Of a DNA stretch of 24,459 bases, positions 4,103 through 24,459 are shown one piece after another. The DNA is taken from the IMG/VR virus record IMGVR_UViG_3300043431_000067, positions 1 through 24,459 of that record. One strand, given 5' to 3'. Source of the DNA: a virus. The notes under the pieces are model-generated. The model did no database searches. It had not been told where the DNA came from and saw nothing but the letters and a program-made list of their open reading frames with translations. Position 1 is the stretch's first letter. Every line of letters starts with the position of its first letter. The position numbers were made by a program, and so were the translations under genes.

Positions 4103-5990
4103 TCTTTATCAAGAAATTATCCATCAAAGTCGTTATGCTCGTTTTCTTCCTGACCAACATCGAAGGGAGACTTGGGAAGAAACTGTTCAGAGGCTTATGG
4201 ACTATCTCTGGAGTAAGGTAAGTGACGGGCTTATCCAGGATAAGGTGAATGAAGTTAAACAAGCTGTCCTCAATCTAGAAATCATGCCCTCCATGAGACT
4301 TATGATGACGGCCGGAGAGGCTTGTGAGAGAGATAATATCTCTGCTTACAATTGCTCTTATCTTGCTGTAAACAATAAGAGGGCCTTCTCTGAGGCTCTT
4401 TACATTCTTATGAATGGTACGGGTGTTGGGTTTAGTTGTGAAAGGCAAGAGGTTGCAAAGCTTCCTCCTATTCCTTTTGAACTCAAGCATGTTGATGATG
4501 TTATTGTTGTAGGAGATAGCAAACTTGGATGGGCTAAGTCCTTTAAAAAGCTCTTGTCCTCATTGTGGGAAGGAGACATTCCATCTGTTGACTATACGAA
4601 GGTACGTCCAGCAGGGGCACGACTTGTTACCTTCGGGGGACGGGCTTCTGGACCTGAACCTTTGCGGCGATTGTTCGAATTTACTATGGAAACTTTTAAG
4701 CGAGCAAAGGGTAGAAAACTTAATAGCCTTGAAGTACACGACATGATGTGTATGATTGGGGAGATTGTTGTGGTGGGTGGGGTGAGGCGATCTGCTCTTA
4801 TTTCTCTCTCCAATCTCTCTGATAGGCGTATGGCTGAGGCTAAGAGTGGTGCATGGTGGGAAGCTAACTCTCAACGATCTTTGGCTAATAATTCTGTAGC
4901 TTATACGGAGAAACCTGATGCTACGACTTTCCTGGAAGAATGGACTACTCTTGTTAAATCCAAGTCAGGAGAACGTGGAATCTTTAACCGAGAAGCTTCT
5001 CAACGTCAAGCAGCTAAGTGGGGACGGAGAGATAAAGATCGAGAGTACGGAACTAACCCATGCAGTGAAATTATTCTTCGTGATAAACAGTTCTGCAATC
5101 TTACGGAAGTGGTTGTTAGAGCGGATGACACATTTGACGATCTTAAACGAAAAGTTGAACTTGCCACAATTCTGGGAACTATTCAGTCTACCCTCACAAG
5201 TTTCCAATTCCTAAGTGAGGAGTGGAAGAAGAATACTGAGGAAGAGAGACTTCTTGGCGTTTCTTTGACAGGTATTATGGATCATCCAGTAATGAATGGG
5301 ACCTATAACTTTGAATTTGAAGCAGACTCATTAGAAGAATGGTTAGAGAAATTACGAGACCATGCAAGGAATGTAAATGAAGAGTGGGCTAGTAAATTAG
5401 GAATCCCCGCAAGTGCTTCAATTACTTGCGTTAAACCTTCTGGTACTGTTAGCCAGCTTGTTGACTCTGCCAGCGGCATTCATGCTCGTCATAACCCATA
5501 TTATATTAGACGTATCCGTATGGATAAAAAGGACAGTATCTACAAATTCTTAAAAGACAAAGGTGTCCCTGTAGAAGATGAAGCTTTTCGTCCTGAGTCT
5601 ACAGCAGTATTCTCTTTTCCTATGAAAGCTCCTGAAGGTGCTGTATGTCGTATGGATAAGACAGCTATTGAGCAACTTGAACTATGGCTTACCTATCAAC
5701 GACATTGGTGTGAGCATAAGCCATCTGTAACCATCTCTGTTAAGGATAATGAATGGATGGAGGTAGGAGCTTGGGTATGGAAGCACTTTGATGAAATGTC
5801 TGGTGTATCCTTCCTTCCCTTCTCAGATCACACTTACCAACAAGCTCCTTACACCGATTGTACTAAAGAAGAGTATGAAGAGCTTCTGGCTAAGATGCCT
5901 ACAGTTGATTGGTCTGAATTTGTGGAGAAGGAAGACAATACGGAGGGGATGCAACAGCTTGCTTGTGTTGCGGGGGTGTGTGAGATATGA
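4092..5990 (+). CDS. nrdJ: Adenosylcobalamin-dependent (class II) ribonucleotide reductase (632 aa)
   Basis: Reduces ribonucleotides to deoxyribonucleotides in the host cytoplasm using a cobalamin-derived thiyl radical, supplying dNTPs for phage replication. NPCSE (Asn322, Cys324, Glu326) followed by Cys335 in FCNL reproduces the catalytic Asn-Cys-Glu and the reducing Cys of Lactobacillus RTPR; the 11-residue Cys-Cys spacing equals Cys408-Cys419 there. Cys88 (NCSY) is the disulfide partner. The C-terminal CVAGVC (Cys625/Cys630) is the CX4C thiol-relay tail. The N-terminus has no ATP-cone, and at 632 residues it is about 100 shorter than RTPR. No intein is seen. The start is GTG 4092 after AAAGGGA; no upstream in-frame ATG exists. 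It requires host cobalamin. Confidence 0.93.
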   Translation: MLPSLYQEIIHQSRYARFLPDQHRRETWEETVQRLMDYLWSKVSDGLIQDKVNEVKQAVLNLEIMPSMRLMMTAGEACERDNISAYNCSYLAVNNKRAFSEALYILMNGTGVGFSCERQEVAKLPPIPFELKHVDDVIVVGDSKLGWAKSFKKLLSSLWEGDIPSVDYTKVRPAGARLVTFGGRASGPEPLRRLFEFTMETFKRAKGRKLNSLEVHDMMCMIGEIVVVGGVRRSALISLSNLSDRRMAEAKSGAWWEANSQRSLANNSVAYTEKPDATTFLEEWTTLVKSKSGERGIFNREASQRQAAKWGRRDKDREYGTNPCSEIILRDKQFCNLTEVVVRADDTFDDLKRKVELATILGTIQSTLTSFQFLSEEWKKNTEEERLLGVSLTGIMDHPVMNGTYNFEFEADSLEEWLEKLRDHARNVNEEWASKLGIPASASITCVKPSGTVSQLVDSASGIHARHNPYYIRRIRMDKKDSIYKFLKDKGVPVEDEAFRPESTAVFSFPMKAPEGAVCRMDKTAIEQLELWLTYQRHWCEHKPSVTISVKDNEWMEVGAWVWKHFDEMSGVSFLPFSDHTYQQAPYTDCTKEEYEELLAKMPTVDWSEFVEKEDNTEGMQQLACVAGVCEI

Positions 5991-19728: not shown

Positions 19729-20483
19729 TTTTTAGTAGCTCTTCCATAGTTGGGGTAGGTAATACCATTAGATACTTTCCAAGCTTCCTGAGACATTCTC
19801 CGCCTACCAGTGATGGAGTGTTGTTCAGCTTTCTGGTCAGGCATTTGTCTCAGCTTGTTACTAGCAACACTTTTTACTTCATTAAGATAATACGCAAAAG
19901 CTTGCGTAGGTAGATCAGGAATGAAGCTGTCTTCCAGAGTGAACGAAGGGAGTCTTTTACCATAACATTGTACCTTACTACTTTGAAGAGTATTCTCTAA
20001 CGCACTATCATAGGCATCCATAATGATTGTGTCGTTATCAAAAGATGTGTAGTACATAGGAGCATTGTCATTAAGCACATAGATAGTCACTCCAGAAGGA
20101 TCAGCAATAGCCTGCACATTACTGTTAGTGCTTACACGAGTATTACAATGCTCAATAAAATCTTTAGGAGCCTTATACTTCACTTCTTGATACTTACTAC
20201 TATCAGTAATGAGCTTCTTCTTATCATACTTAATCCACTCTACCTCATTAATATCAGTAGGAATGGTAAAGTAGGTAGGAAAATCAATATCTGTAGAAGC
20301 ATCTAGTTGGAAGAGTTGATAAAGGTGAGGCCAGTCTCTCCCACTAATGATACTCTCGTAAATGCTTCTTGCAATGTATGCAACTTGCATAGATTCAATA
20401 GTATCATCAATGGAGTTTACTTCATCTCCATCCATATCATTCAACACTTCCTGAACTACTTCAAGGAGAGTTAGGCGTCTCAT
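19725..20483 (-). CDS. Tail tubular protein A / adaptor (gp11-like, 252 aa)
   Basis: LTLLEVVQEVLNDMDGDEVNSIDDTIESMQVAYIARSIYESIISGRDWPHL is the characteristic helical start of the gp11-type adaptor, which forms the dodecameric ring between portal and nozzle. A beta domain follows (TDIDFPTYFTIPTDINEVEWIKYD) with a C-terminal helix about 205-230. At 252 residues it is longer than T7 gp11 (196), in keeping with related phages. Start and stop overlap neighbouring genes by 4 nt each. Confidence 0.9.
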   Translation of the reverse strand: MRRLTLLEVVQEVLNDMDGDEVNSIDDTIESMQVAYIARSIYESIISGRDWPHLYQLFQLDASTDIDFPTYFTIPTDINEVEWIKYDKKKLITDSSKYQEVKYKAPKDFIEHCNTRVSTNSNVQAIADPSGVTIYVLNDNAPMYYTSFDNDTIIMDAYDSALENTLQSSKVQCYGKRLPSFTLEDSFIPDLPTQAFAYYLNEVKSVASNKLRQMPDQKAEQHSITGRRRMSQEAWKVSNGITYPNYGRATKK

Positions 20484-20941
20484 TGTTGTCTGATAACCAG
20501 GGTAAGTCTGGCACTCACTGTACCAGTAGATGCTCCAGCAGCAGCGATCTTAATCGCTTCTCCAGCGGAGGCCGTATTATTCGCAGAAGGTGTACAACTA
20601 TCTACATCTCCAGCAGCACTTCCACTATAAGCTACAGTGATTGCTCCAGAGGTTACAGGGGTTCCATCGATAGATAGGGTAAATGTCTTATCTGCACCAC
20701 CAATAGCGCCACTAATGACACTGTACATTTTTTCAATTGCACAGGCAAATGGGGCAACTACATAAAAATCCGCTACATCTGTAATATCCATTTCGACTAC
20801 TAGGGCAGTGAGGGGATAATTCATATCCCAAGTACCACTACCAGCACCATCAGATACATATACCTGTCCTACAGATGCAGTGGAAGCACCCTTTGGTTCA
20901 TGTACATCAGGATCGGTGATTACACTATGTTGTACCGTCAT
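20480..20941 (-). CDS. Head-fibre / decoration-like protein (153 aa)
   Basis: The N-terminus SVITDPDVHEPKGASTASVGQVYVSDGAGSGTW resembles capsid-attached fibre or decoration proteins of tailed phages. The rest is an Ala/Gly/Thr-rich beta-sandwich (DVADFYVVAPFACAIEKMYSVISGA ... KTFTLSIDG). It follows the capsid genes but lies beyond a terminator at 20954-20989, so its transcript level may differ from theirs. AGGA stands 7 nt before the ATG. Overlaps the gp11-like gene by 4 nt. Confidence 0.7.
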   Translation of the reverse strand: MTVQHSVITDPDVHEPKGASTASVGQVYVSDGAGSGTWDMNYPLTALVVEMDITDVADFYVVAPFACAIEKMYSVISGAIGGADKTFTLSIDGTPVTSGAITVAYSGSAAGDVDSCTPSANNTASAGEAIKIAAAGASTGTVSARLTLVIRQQ

Positions 20942-20953
20942 CGTCTATCCTAG

Positions 20954-20989
20954 AAAAAAAAGGGGAGAAGGATTACTCCAACTCCCCTT
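20954..20989 (-). terminator. Rho-independent terminator after the capsid genes
   Basis: Read on the minus strand: AAGGGGAG (20989-20982), an inner GGA/TCC stem with a 4-nt loop and TT/TT mismatch, then CTCCCCTT and a run of eight T in total (20961-20954). It lies 16 nt after the stop of the 176-residue gene and before the head-fibre-like gene. Downstream late genes must be reached by partial read-through or another promoter, which would give capsid proteins in excess over tail and ejection proteins. Confidence 0.85.
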
Positions 20990-21005
20990 ACAAAGCAACT
21001 ACTGT

Positions 21006-21536
21006 TTAGGGAGTGGGGCTAATATAGTCCACAACCAAACGAGCCTTACCAACGGTAGGAGCACTACCGGTATAAAGGACACGAATCACAGAGTCAAACA
21101 GCGTGGCACCGAGACCAGCAGTACCAGTAGCCAATTGAGCACCAGCACCCACCAAACGATCACCAACAGCATCAATCGTGGTAAGGGCAGAGCCAGCAGC
21201 AGCTACCAGACCATCAGCATCAATTTCAGTCGTACCATCAGAGGCTTTATAAGTACCGATGGTAAGAGCCGTCAGAGCATCGAAGGCAGTTTCAACAACA
21301 ACATCAGCTTTGATGAAGACAGAGCCAGCCGGGATAACCACATCCAGGCCATTCTTCGCCCAAGCAGCGGCAGCCATACCGGTAGAAGGAGCAGTAAACT
21401 CAAGAGTCAGAGTCTTCTTCACACCATCCTGGAGCACACCGCCGTACTGACTAGAAGTAGAACGGGGGCCGTAAGAAGTAACGACGGAACCAGCAGTTCC
21501 ACCGTTAGCAGGCCAAGTACGAGTAGAGAAAGTCAT
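21006..21536 (-). CDS. Capsid-associated decoration-like protein (176 aa)
   Basis: An Ala/Gly/Thr-rich beta protein encoded 13 nt after the major capsid gene, with AGGAG about 6 nt before the ATG. Segments such as KKTLTLEFTAPSTG, VVIPAGSVFIKADVVVETAF and GKARLVVDYIS suggest a beta-sandwich. Base composition is visibly more G+C-rich than in neighbouring tail genes, as for the capsid gene, hinting at strong expression. Position and composition favour an abundant capsid decoration or minor head protein; the family is not certain. Confidence 0.68.
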   Translation of the reverse strand: MTFSTRTWPANGGTAGSVVTSYGPRSTSSQYGGVLQDGVKKTLTLEFTAPSTGMAAAAWAKNGLDVVIPAGSVFIKADVVVETAFDALTALTIGTYKASDGTTEIDADGLVAAAGSALTTIDAVGDRLVGAGAQLATGTAGLGATLFDSVIRVLYTGSAPTVGKARLVVDYISPTP

Positions 21537-21549
21537 ATAAATCTCCTAA

Positions 21550-22533
21550 TTAGTAAGCGGTAGAGGTGGTGATGATAGCGCCAAGGGTATCAACACGTTG
21601 GGCACCGAAGCCAAAGCGAGAGGTCACTTGGAACTTATTCGCTCTTACTTCGCTATCACGCCAACCCTCAGTCTTCGGCTGTCTCCGCCAAGCATGCATC
21701 ACAGGCTTAGACTGGTCATCTGCCACCGACATGAACAGGTTCACAACGTCACCGATTTGAGCAGTTTCAGAAGTCAGACCATAGCTGGAGGCATTCAGAG
21801 CTTCCGTTGCAGTCTTCAGCGGCAGGAAGTTACTGGTATAGACATCGAAGCCCATGATGTTACGAACGAAACGGTGACTAGAAGCAAAACCAGAGGTCAT
21901 CAGACCCTCAAACTGAGGATTGTAAGACACAGAGGTAGTGTTCAAAATCAGACCATTAATCGTAGCTTCCACGATGGGGTCAACAATGGCGATACGGCCA
22001 GCTTGGGGCACGTTAGCTTTATCGAAAGATAGTTTCATGGCAATGAAGTCAGCCAGAGTAATCTTCCGGACGTTACCAGCGGTAGAGCCAACCCAACGGT
22101 GAGGCCGACCATTAACGAGGTTAATGTTGGCATTCGTTTGAGCAGCATTACCAGCAGAGAGGAACTTGGTTTCAAAATACTCACCAAGCGCACGGGTAGA
22201 TTCCTGAGCCCGCATAGCCATCAGCGTATCAACTTGATCGCCATCCTCATACAGATCGTCAGAGACTTTCCAAGCATCACCAACATAATCAGTAATGGTG
22301 AGGTTGACAACGCCAGTGTCAATCGGATTGTAAATCAGAGGCACATCTTCATCTGCATCTTGCAGGGTGACAGTACCCACGGTCTTGATGTTCAGGGTGG
22401 TGCCAGAACCGAAGTCGCTTACGTCCCGATAAAAACTCTCAGGCAGAAGGACATCGTCCATATTCTCCAAGATAAACTTGGAGTACTTTTGCGCCTCAAT
22501 AAAGGCACCAGTGTTAGTAGTCAGTTGAGACAT
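21550..22533 (-). CDS. Major capsid protein (T7 gp10-like, HK97 fold, 327 aa)
   Basis: Forms the icosahedral shell. The N-terminal helix FIEAQKYSKFILENMDDVLLPESFYRDV, then a TVTLQDADEDVPLIY segment, the spine-like helix QVDTLMAMRAQESTRALGEYFETKFL (about 103-126), and the C-terminal AWRRQPKTEGWRDSEVRANKFQVTSRFGFGAQR are typical of podovirus HK97-fold capsid proteins. The gene sits right after the scaffold gene, with TAAGGAGTAATAA before the ATG, one of the best ribosome sites in the late block. Length is close to T7 gp10A (345). Confidence 0.93.
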   Translation of the reverse strand: MSQLTTNTGAFIEAQKYSKFILENMDDVLLPESFYRDVSDFGSGTTLNIKTVGTVTLQDADEDVPLIYNPIDTGVVNLTITDYVGDAWKVSDDLYEDGDQVDTLMAMRAQESTRALGEYFETKFLSAGNAAQTNANINLVNGRPHRWVGSTAGNVRKITLADFIAMKLSFDKANVPQAGRIAIVDPIVEATINGLILNTTSVSYNPQFEGLMTSGFASSHRFVRNIMGFDVYTSNFLPLKTATEALNASSYGLTSETAQIGDVVNLFMSVADDQSKPVMHAWRRQPKTEGWRDSEVRANKFQVTSRFGFGAQRVDTLGAIITTSTAY

Positions 22534-22536
22534 TTA

Positions 22537-23220
22537 TTACTCCTTAATTCCCAAGTCTTGTTTAACCAATTCGCCAGCATTTCTCCAAGCACTTACAAGT
22601 TCCTTGGTAGAAGCACCAACGGGCTTTACTTTTACACTGAGAGCTTGTCCCTGGTTCTGCATGGTCGTAGTGTTAACGCTACTGGAAGTCTTGCCAGGAG
22701 TGAAGCTTTTAGCTTCCAGTCCTGCCAACCTGAATACAGCTTGGGGGCTTGTCGCAGCCAGCTTATTCAAAGCTTCCAGAGGAACACCCGTCTCTTGTGC
22801 AAGCAGTTTATACTGCTCCGGGCCTTTCTCTCCAAACTTACTATTGAAAGCATTCACTACAGTGTTGATGTTGTTCTGAGCTGCTTTCTGGGCTTCCTTG
22901 GCCGACAGGGCATTCTCGACAACTTTAGTGAGGGCTTCCATATCCAGGGGAGCAGCTTTATTCTCTGGCATCCCTTGGGTCTTAAATTCTTCCAGAAGTT
23001 CTTCGGCAGCTTTACGCTTTGCCAGCTCTTCCCTTGCTTGCTTCATCTCTTCCTCAAGTTTCTGAATGTGAGATTGAGCATGGGGGATACTCTTCAATGC
23101 ATCCTCTACCGTTTGATACTTCTTTCCTTCTCCCACAAATTCTGCAAGTTCGGTCGGAATTGCATTTTGCTGGGTTTCTACTACATCAGGGGTCGCCTGA
23201 TCAAAAATCGTTTCACTCAA
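22537..23220 (-). CDS. Capsid scaffolding protein (gp9-like, 227 aa)
   Basis: Acidic N-terminus, FVGEGKKYQTVEDALKSIPHAQSHIQKLEEEMKQAREELAKRKAAEELL (about 28-77) as a long coiled coil, and a basic C-terminal helix (STKELVSAWRNAGELVKQDLG) that would contact the capsid protein. This is the standard scaffold design, and the gene precedes the major capsid gene by 3 nt. The start is TTG 23220: AAGGAG lies 6 nt upstream and the first internal Met is only at about residue 59, after the conserved region begins, so no ATG start is possible. Confidence 0.9.
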   Translation of the reverse strand: MSETIFDQATPDVVETQQNAIPTELAEFVGEGKKYQTVEDALKSIPHAQSHIQKLEEEMKQAREELAKRKAAEELLEEFKTQGMPENKAAPLDMEALTKVVENALSAKEAQKAAQNNINTVVNAFNSKFGEKGPEQYKLLAQETGVPLEALNKLAATSPQAVFRLAGLEAKSFTPGKTSSSVNTTTMQNQGQALSVKVKPVGASTKELVSAWRNAGELVKQDLGIKE

Positions 23221-23443
23221 TTACTTCTCCTTGGTCAGGAAGAAAATCAACTACTTTAGAAAAAGCTTTCAACATACCTAGCTTGAAAGCCAGAAACTCT
23301 GCCCAGGATTTTGTAAAATTCTCCTGGTTGTACATTTCTCTAATTATTAGATTCTCTTGCTCTTTCAAATATTCTACAAGGATAAGAATAACTTCTTCTT
23401 TTTTCAATTCCTTGTAGATGTTACTCTTTAATGTTTTAATCAT
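23213..23443 (-). CDS. Small helical protein upstream of scaffold (76 aa)
   Basis: Unrecognised function. Wholly helical and charged, with a hydrophobic C-terminal helix (WAEFLAFKLGMLKAFSKVVDFL). It lies where many T7-like phages keep a small gene between portal and scaffold. The ribosome site is weak (AGAAG before the ATG). Its stop overlaps the scaffold's TTG start by 8 nt, so it may control scaffold synthesis by coupling. It is the first late gene after the interrupting antisense endonuclease gene. Confidence 0.65.
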   Translation of the reverse strand: MIKTLKSNIYKELKKEEVILILVEYLKEQENLIIREMYNQENFTKSWAEFLAFKLGMLKAFSKVVDFLPDQGEVIE

Positions 23444-23469
23444 AACTTCTATATTACACTATATGAGGC

Positions 23470-23498
23470 TTGACTTGCAAGTTTCGATAGGTTATAAT
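23470..23498 (+). promoter_or_regulatory. Sigma-70 promoter for the antisense HNH gene
   Basis: TTGACT (23470-23475) and TATAAT (23493-23498) are separated by exactly 17 nt; five of six and six of six positions match the sigma-70 consensus. Transcription would start near 23505 and reach the endonuclease ATG at 23530. A perfect 10-bp palindrome ACTTGCAAGT (23473-23482) overlaps the -35 and could be an operator. The gene can therefore be read by host RNA polymerase independently of the late operon. Confidence 0.8.
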
Positions 23499-23529
23499 AT
23501 CTGTATTATGTCTAGTGAGGAGTTTTTCC

Positions 23530-24063
23530 ATGTTTGTTCCCAGTATTGATTGGAAAGAAGAAATCTCTAATATTCTTTCTCTTGGTTCACAAGATAAGAC
23601 ACTAAGAGAAATTGGTGAATACTATGGCGTATCAAGACAAAGGATTAAACAGGTTTGTCAGAGGTATGGTATTCTTCCTACGGCTATCGGTAAAGGTGCA
23701 AAAAGGGCAAAAAGAGAAGCAGCTTTTAAGCAGAAGTGGGGAGATAAGAATGATTCTTCTCTTTACGGTATTCAAAGGTCAAAATATAGAACAAAGAAAG
23801 CTAATGCCAAACGTCTTGGTATTCCCTTTACAGTTGCTTTTGGTGACCTTTCCTGGCCGGTCTATTGCCCTATTCTAGGACTAGAGATAGACTACTTTGC
23901 AGAGAATAGGTTAGAAAATAGTTGTACCTTCGATAGAAAAAATCCAAAAGAAGGTTACACGCCAGAAAATACTTTTATTATCTCCTGGCGGGCCAACCGT
24001 ATTAAAAATGATGGAACTGCTAGAGAGCATCAACTCATTATGGAGTGGATGTCAACCCCCTAG
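23530..24063 (+). CDS. Free-standing HTH-HNH homing-type endonuclease (177 aa)
   Basis: The N-terminal helix-turn-helix KTLREIGEYYGVSRQRIKQVCQRYGI (about 23-48) resembles sigma-factor region 4-type DNA binding. A basic linker follows. The C-terminal nuclease part reads YCPILGLEIDYF, SCTFDRKNPKEGYTPENTFIISWRANRIKNDGT (about 111-163), an HNH-like module with Asp-Arg after a strand and Asn residues in the ViSwrAN turn, common in phage mobile endonucleases. GTG 23515 is in frame but ATG 23530 has AGGAG 7 nt upstream. It runs against the surrounding late operon and its stop overlaps the portal stop by 12 nt, the mark of an inserted selfish gene. Confidence 0.8.
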   Translation: MFVPSIDWKEEISNILSLGSQDKTLREIGEYYGVSRQRIKQVCQRYGILPTAIGKGAKRAKREAAFKQKWGDKNDSSLYGIQRSKYRTKKANAKRLGIPFTVAFGDLSWPVYCPILGLEIDYFAENRLENSCTFDRKNPKEGYTPENTFIISWRANRIKNDGTAREHQLIMEWMSTP

Positions 24064-24459
24064 CATAGTTTCCTCAACAGGGGTAGCTGCTTCCACATCC
24101 AAGTTCTGTTGACTTTGCTGTGCAAGTCGTTGAGTCTCAGCTTGTTCAAACACTGCAATGTTGTCAGCAATGAAGTCAAACTGTTCAAAGCCCATAACAT
24201 CCTCGACCATTTGAGCTAGTTTCTTACTACTAATGTGAGGAGCAATAAGCTGCCCAACAGGGCTATTAAAGATGCCAGTGAGGTTCTGTACCAATTGGGC
24301 TCTCGTTGCATAGTGTCTAGCCCCAACAGGACGAAGCTTACCAGTAGCCGTAATATCTTCTTTCGTAATAGTAAGGAAATCTGCTACACCCAAGTCATCA
24401 TCCATAACTCGAATGACATCATTCCCATCCATATTACGCCTAGCCAGTTCTAGCATATT
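24052..24459 (-). CDS. Portal (head-to-tail connector, gp8-like), C-terminal part
   Basis: The frame is open to the right window edge, so the N-terminal part is missing. The visible 136 residues include VIRVMDDDLGVADFLTITKEDITATGKLRPVGARHYATRAQLVQNLTGIF and a Gln/Ala-rich tail, as in the C-terminal wing and crown of T7-like portal proteins. The 'GARHYATRAQLVQNL' block is typical. It lies at the head of portal-scaffold-capsid order as in T7. A Met at the very edge is internal, not the start. The stop overlaps the convergent endonuclease stop. Confidence 0.88.
   Translation of the reverse strand, partial: NMLELARRNMDGNDVIRVMDDDLGVADFLTITKEDITATGKLRPVGARHYATRAQLVQNLTGIFNSPVGQLIAPHISSKKLAQMVEDVMGFEQFDFIADNIAVFEQAETQRLAQQSQQNLDVEAATPVEETMLGG

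Follow-up and report, generated by a model that had tools for sequence, protein, structure and literature searches.

An antisense HTH-HNH endonuclease gene apparently inserted within the capsid-operon promoter of a Zobellviridae-like phage

The HTH-HNH gene and its surroundings

The window, that is the whole 24,459-nucleotide stretch of viral DNA analyzed here (IMG/VR record IMGVR_UViG_3300043431_000067), belongs to a Zobellviridae-like phage. Its capsid protein is 72% identical to that of MW202697 and 67% to those of the Methylophilales phages MEP401 and MEP402. As the first-pass annotation had noted, one + strand gene runs opposite to all surrounding late genes, the portal, small ORF, scaffold-like, and capsid genes being on the − strand. 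The features of this region are the following:

21550-22533, − strand: major capsid protein (Phage_capsid_4, 1.3e-11; phrog_267)
22537-23220, − strand: scaffold-like protein (phrog_7931; synteny with the MEP401/402 scaffold)
23213-23443, − strand: conserved 76-aa small ORF, first of the capsid operon and right flank (71% identical to L002; present in the assessable relatives)
23451-23456, − strand: presumed native −10 TAATAT, 7 nt ahead of the small-ORF start codon (identical hexamer at the L005 empty site)
23469-24049, + strand: putative insert of roughly 580 bp, its ends placed to within ± 5 nt by gap comparison with L002-L005
23470-23475 and 23493-23498, + strand: TTGACT and TATAAT of the HTH-HNH gene's sigma70 promoter, TTGACT-17-TATAAT (11/12)
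23475-23480, − strand: candidate outward −35 TTGCAA from the insert, 18 nt from TAATAT and back to back with the HTH-HNH gene's own −35
23514-23521, + strand: Shine-Dalgarno region GTGAGGAG, read from the sequence, ending about 8 nt upstream of the ATG at 23530
23530-24063, + strand: HTH-HNH endonuclease gene, 177 aa (ORF call, profile matches, family alignment, AF2), with the HTH at about residues 21-46 and the nuclease at about 80-174
24050-24055, − strand: native capsid-operon −35 TTGACA, overlapping the portal stop TGA (24052-24054), at the same position relative to the stop in L002-L005
24052-24459, − strand: portal protein C-terminus (phrog_332; 86% identical to L002), left flank

The ORF at 23530-24063 is a real gene encoding an HTH and a His-Me/HNH-type nuclease of the PHROG 3322 kind. 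Its frame extends from 23515 to 24063 (+), the ATG linked to the Shine-Dalgarno region is at 23530, and the stop codon TAG ends at 24063. In a profile search, residues 59-175 match the PHROG 3322 endonuclease (E = 1.2e-22), and the nuclease-domain columns C, P, D, GY, N, S, AN, and K are invariant between the window protein and PHROG 3322 endonucleases. Full-length relatives are 33-49% identical to it, with invariant HTH and nuclease residues (family alignment A2). The AF2 model (pLDDT 94.5) comprises HTH helices and a strand-strand-helix core, and its best Foldseek match is the HNH enzyme PacI (probability 1.00 but E 0.033). The canonical HNH family PF01844 was not matched by the window protein in Pfam at E 0.1 and is absent among the families listed for 39 family members at E 0.01. 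The DHHRN pattern (CX2-4C, DHDH, CX2C) is likewise absent on inspection of alignment A2.

The nearest Pfam family of the HTH is Sigma70_r4 (3.8e-5; 23.5 bits vs a curated cut-off of 24.1), which 14 of 39 family members match at E ≤ 0.01. The family profile scores higher against a designed CAP-repeat protein and KorA than against RpoD. Among Foldseek matches, sigma region 4 is one of many HTH folds, and PDB 1ku7, SigA region 4 on −35 DNA, is among the weak ones. The sigma-like helix mostly reads S[RK]QR[IV]xQ, R38 and Q41 being invariant in alignment A2; in sigma70, the −35 is contacted by the corresponding helix.

The promoter and good Shine-Dalgarno sequence ascribed to this gene from the sequence are both present. 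TTGACT-17-TATAAT ranks top among 13 promoter-like sites in 20000-24459 (7.0 expected from shuffles). With a matrix built from 33 native capsid promoters of the window's relatives, it is the best site of the entire window on both strands (20.4 vs 9.8 for the next). An own promoter scoring at least 10/12 precedes 38 of 47 assessable family members, 30 of 77 loci being skipped where the start was not covered or too little upstream sequence was available. The last four codons and the stop of the HTH-HNH gene lie within host portal/−35 sequence, the stop codon falling inside portal codons.

An intron or RNA element was rejected: no Rfam match reached the gathering score in the window, and near the gene there are only weak, chance-level ones (E up to 5). 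The absence of such a match, and a position between two genes rather than inside one, also speak against a group I intron-encoded endonuclease. The early region of the window carries two further nuclease genes, an HNH gene at 1034-1390 (+; phrog_1985, 8.9e-19) and an endonuclease VII-like gene at 2634-2951 (+; Pfam, 5.5e-16).

Empty junctions and the capsid-operon promoter

The HTH-HNH gene is encoded in none of 84 related loci. Seventy-two of these have both a portal and a scaffold match and yielded 70 clean portal/small-ORF junctions (39 distinct sequences), all empty. Two were dropped: L048, whose portal frame continues into the small-ORF region, and L072, which has a visible promoter but no intact start called for the small ORF. 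The portal stop and the small-ORF start are 608 nt apart in the window, as against 31-50 nt in the 70 junctions (34 nt in L002-L005). Comparison with gene-less relatives, as proposed in the first-pass annotation, placed the putative borders of the insert at 23469 and 24049 (± 5 nt), and the empty junctions identify the gene as an insertion. The contrary possibility raised there, a gene occupying this site in all relatives, fails because all 70 assessable junctions are empty and near-isogenic pairs with and without the gene exist in a second phage lineage.

All 70 empty junctions carry a sigma70 promoter, TTGAC[A/T]-17-TA..AT, on the capsid strand. It scores 12/12 in 22, 11/12 in 40, and 10/12 in eight, invariably with a 17-nt spacer. 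In 60 of the 70, the −10 ends 6 nt ahead of the small-ORF ATG, so that in these empty-site relatives the first capsid-operon gene would be on a leaderless or nearly leaderless mRNA (the window's ATG is at 23443, −). In the window, about 590 bp lie between the native −35 and what is presumed to be the native −10. As a −10, TAATAT is weak (4/6, no TGn), and another scan favored TATAGT at 23458-23463 (−). The 33-promoter matrix found no capsid-strand (−) promoter at the window junction, the best site scoring 1.9 vs a native minimum of 15.6. By this comparison, the insert sits between two elements of the capsid-operon promoter: the −35, which survives in the portal stop codon, and the presumed −10. 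The conserved promoter at the junction, and its apparent splitting by the insert, had been missed earlier. A candidate capsid promoter embedded in the endonuclease gene (TTGGCA-16-TATATT, 23783-23810, −; 10/12) was rejected as indistinguishable from chance: a score of at least 10 with spacer penalty arises in 11% of region shuffles and was seen in four of 56 junctions.

In another Zobellviridae relative, L191 (capsid 70%), the portal/small-ORF junction likewise holds a gene (4487-4990, −) for a related 167-aa nuclease with a different HTH, but here the gene is in sense and the promoter upstream of it is intact. This marks the junction as a hot spot for such genes.

Relatives in other phages

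A single-protein search of viral contigs with the HTH-HNH protein returned no match. Two degenerate DNA patterns recovered 121 loci, all encoding relatives of the protein and most with the HTH-HNH layout; 77 remained after removal of duplicates. Loci L101-L219 were selected for encoding WRANRIKNDG, which is therefore invariant by construction, and prevalence was drawn only from loci selected by their major capsid protein (MCP). Among the 59 loci with both neighbors called, the endonuclease gene is antisense to both in 40 and sense to both in ten. Most antisense genes lie between a 650-aa portal gene and an 80-aa small ORF of a second, freshwater podophage lineage. Its portal is 20-26% identical to the MEP402 portal over matched parts, and its capsid protein is at most 34% identical to those of named phages, which are podophages of filamentous cyanobacteria. 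The second lineage is unrelated to the window phage.

Forty-five MCP-selected loci of the second lineage comprise six with the gene, 34 empty, and five not assessable. Occupied alleles have empty-site sisters that are 93-99% identical. In pairs such as L110/L252, L203/L253, L217/L267, and L114/L227, both flanks are 94-99% identical, and such near-isogenic pairs differ chiefly by the endonuclease gene and about 50 nt at each border; MAFFT bins for L180/L283 display one additional dip on the right side, at 100-150 nt. A capsid-strand promoter of at least 10/12 is present in 24 of 29 empty junctions, identical junctions and those with long gaps (L201, L229, L248, and L290) having been dropped. 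Within 120 nt of the small ORF, a canonical capsid-strand promoter occurs in none of 56 occupied junctions (shuffles 1.6%), and 39 of the 56 have a promoter of at least 10 on the endonuclease strand (shuffles 3.5%). An extended-type −10 is still present in 49 of 55 occupied junctions, the window falling outside these 49. The statement that occupied alleles simply lose the capsid promoter was accordingly softened, since an extended −10 survives in most of them and an outward −35 of the TTG type in some. In four empty junctions (L239, L240, L255, and L259), the promoter is immediately preceded by a second TTGACA, which resembles a duplication of the −35 region.

The spacing of boxes was measured in one representative per DNA group of endonuclease genes (21 groups, 19 measurable; L148 and L175, without a box, were excluded). 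Reading towards the capsid genes, the endonuclease gene's own −35 appears inverted (GTCAAG) and is followed by a −10. In 16 of the 19, an extended −10 scoring at least 6 was found, at 10-13 nt from the inverted box in nine and at 27-29 nt in seven; shuffles reach this in 1.3% for the 10-13 class and 2.1% for either class. L107, L117, L136, L142, and L143 fit these classes poorly. The window, with TGCAAGTCAAG, 12 nt, and TAATAT, fits the 10-13 class if TAATAT is the −10, and it has this 11-mer in common with L203. In L220, a third phage with the window's promoter layout, TTGCATGTCAAG-11-TATCAT lies upstream of terminase genes; in L103, whose endonuclease gene is in sense, TTGCATGTCAAG-11-TATAAT follows the gene. 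Six of the nine representatives of the 10-13 class, as well as the window, L220, and L103, have a hexamer of the TTG type just before GTCAAG, separated from the −10 by 17-18 nt. The layouts are TTGCAT-17 in L220 and L103, TTGCGT-18 in L122/L163, and TTGCTT-17 in L282; in L110, L112, and L254 the outward −35 lacks a TTG start. From this spacing, a weak −35 facing outward may come from the end of the insert.

In a tree of 39 proteins, the window protein belongs to a group of 12 (92/91, not starred) that is apart from nearly all second-lineage members and includes L201, a sense member of that lineage. Its nearest row is L167, with weak support (82/34). The geometry label requires five changes on the tree, two of them forced by well-supported branches, and the geometry classes partly reflect shared descent. 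These data fit a shared target preference with repeated insertion; because the phages on either side are unrelated, one ancient insertion that has since travelled together with its flanks is less likely.

Several members have other neighbors. Some lie in sense beside DNA polymerase, DnaB, or thymidylate synthase genes, and we dropped the idea that all members target promoters. In several family members, among them L220:7533-8084 (−) and L116:10913-11485 (−), the nuclease part also matches PHROG 1400, annotated as Srd anti-sigma factor (2.6e-9 for L220). A relative in Synechococcus phage S-CBS4 is annotated "Srd putative anti-sigma factor", a label that may be based on a nuclease relative.

Proposed mechanism and comparison with known systems

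The reading that we consider probable is that the cassette encodes a free-standing homing endonuclease, brings its own promoter, and was inserted antisense into the spacer of the capsid-operon promoter, presumably by cutting and homing, leaving a weaker outward promoter. By analogy with known homing endonucleases, expression of the nuclease would depend on the cassette's promoter and not on the late operon, and the enzyme would cut the promoters of co-infecting relatives lacking the gene just beyond the −35. Repair of the cut promoter would copy the cassette in. The 5' end of the cassette would then present back-to-back −35 boxes. The inward box would serve the nuclease; the outward box, which is weak and stands about 17-18 nt from the orphan −10, would, we propose, leave the capsid genes with a promoter of reduced strength. 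Once split, the site would no longer be cut. Relatives standing antisense at the same kind of promoter in unrelated phages suggest that these genes home to promoters; promoters are not the family's only home, given the sense members beside replication genes and the L191 gene downstream of an intact promoter.

An ordinary free-standing endonuclease with its recognition site in the portal gene or small ORF, the promoter being the sole tolerated intergenic spot, is a serious alternative to which we give somewhat less than an even chance; it overlaps the probable reading in all but the place of cleavage. In T4, according to the portions consulted of PMC2988022, free-standing endonucleases are intergenic and several target a neighboring gene, and family members here adjoin DNA polymerase and helicase genes. 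Since the 31- to 50-nt gaps of the window's lineage are little more than promoter, any tolerated insertion would hit it, and the portal/small-ORF junction may simply be a tolerated place. Against this, the endonuclease gene sits by the small-ORF promoter even with the portal kilobases away (L107, L118, and L130), the distances to the −10 are constant, the same layout recurs in unrelated operons, and the third site, L220, precedes terminase genes. A more specific version of promoter targeting, which we regard as rather doubtful, is a clade that would target sigma70 −35 boxes through a helix like that of sigma region 4.2, cut a few nt downstream, and insert antisense into head or packaging promoters, the outward −35 patching the promoter. 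The sigma-like helix, with a TTGAC box in both the target and the gene's own promoter, suggests the −35 as the thing read; the same box in its own promoter would also make self-repression possible.

The resemblance of the HTH to sigma region 4 and the divergent overlapping promoters would also suit a domesticated regulator that binds −35 boxes and times capsid expression, its cleavage secondary or lost; I-TevI is a known endonuclease-autorepressor in the text available of PMC2988022. Such a role is improbable given the patchy presence of the gene (six of 40 assessable second-lineage loci, none of 84 in the window's lineage) and its conserved nuclease residues. Least credible of all is regulation of portal expression by an antisense transcript. 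The transcript seemed from the sequence to have no terminator; indeed, past 24063 the + strand of the window contains no terminator-like site, and the HTH-HNH and portal genes overlap tail-to-tail. However, no Rfam RNA element was found, and related genes also stand in sense at the same junction (L191 and L201), so the orientation is not maintained for antisense. The suggestion that antisense RNA might affect portal expression is thus unsupported, whereas the picture of a homing-type endonuclease cassette, antisense to the late genes and with its own promoter, is supported by the ORF, the PHROG 3322 match, the promoter scan, and the empty sites.

Elements of this arrangement are known from T4, where, in the sections seen of PMC2988022, free-standing endonucleases are described as inserting into intergenic positions, with a capacity to displace promoters and perhaps to give rise to antisense transcripts. 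segD is, like the window's gene, a free-standing endonuclease gene antisense among capsid genes (23/24); it differs in being of the GIY-YIG type, and those sections report no segD-specific promoter and describe no split promoter. At segG and others, host promoters are likewise displaced, the downstream promoters now lying inside the endonuclease region (PMC2988022). Those genes are in sense, whereas in the window the insert parts the −35 of a single promoter from its −10, and the outward −35 apparently comes from the insert end. I-TevI binds its own promoter as well as its homing site, and the two are alike at 15 of 20 nt in T4 (PMC2988022, as far as consulted); here the CTTGAC[A/T] box of the endonuclease gene resembles the target −35 region. 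I-TevI is an intron-encoded GIY-YIG enzyme, unlike the product of the window's free-standing gene. The F-CphI/Endo VII-like (DHHRN) enzymes are, like it, free-standing phage homing endonucleases of the beta-beta-alpha metal type, but their CX2-4C ... DHDH ... CX2C pattern, as given in the portions consulted of PMC6083498, is absent in the window protein. PHROG 3322 endonucleases of Salmonella phage Vi06, Aeromonas phage PT2, and others share the nuclease domain (28-37% identity over the domain) and lie in or beside DNA polymerase genes. In the phages collection, no record covers at least 80% of the window's protein; at this coverage there is one record for the L116 protein (31.9% identity) and one for that of L170 (33.3%). 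The titles and opening abstracts returned by an open-access literature search describe no promoter-splitting homing endonuclease.

Compared with the T4 cases, a single endonuclease family here recurs within the promoter itself, across phages that are unrelated and with near-isogenic empty alleles. This makes testable whether selfish nucleases target promoters, what a broken capsid promoter costs the phage, and whether inserts reset late-gene timing. A −35-reading clade, if real, would be a selfish element specific for promoters and, at the same time, a switch that splits promoters in nature.
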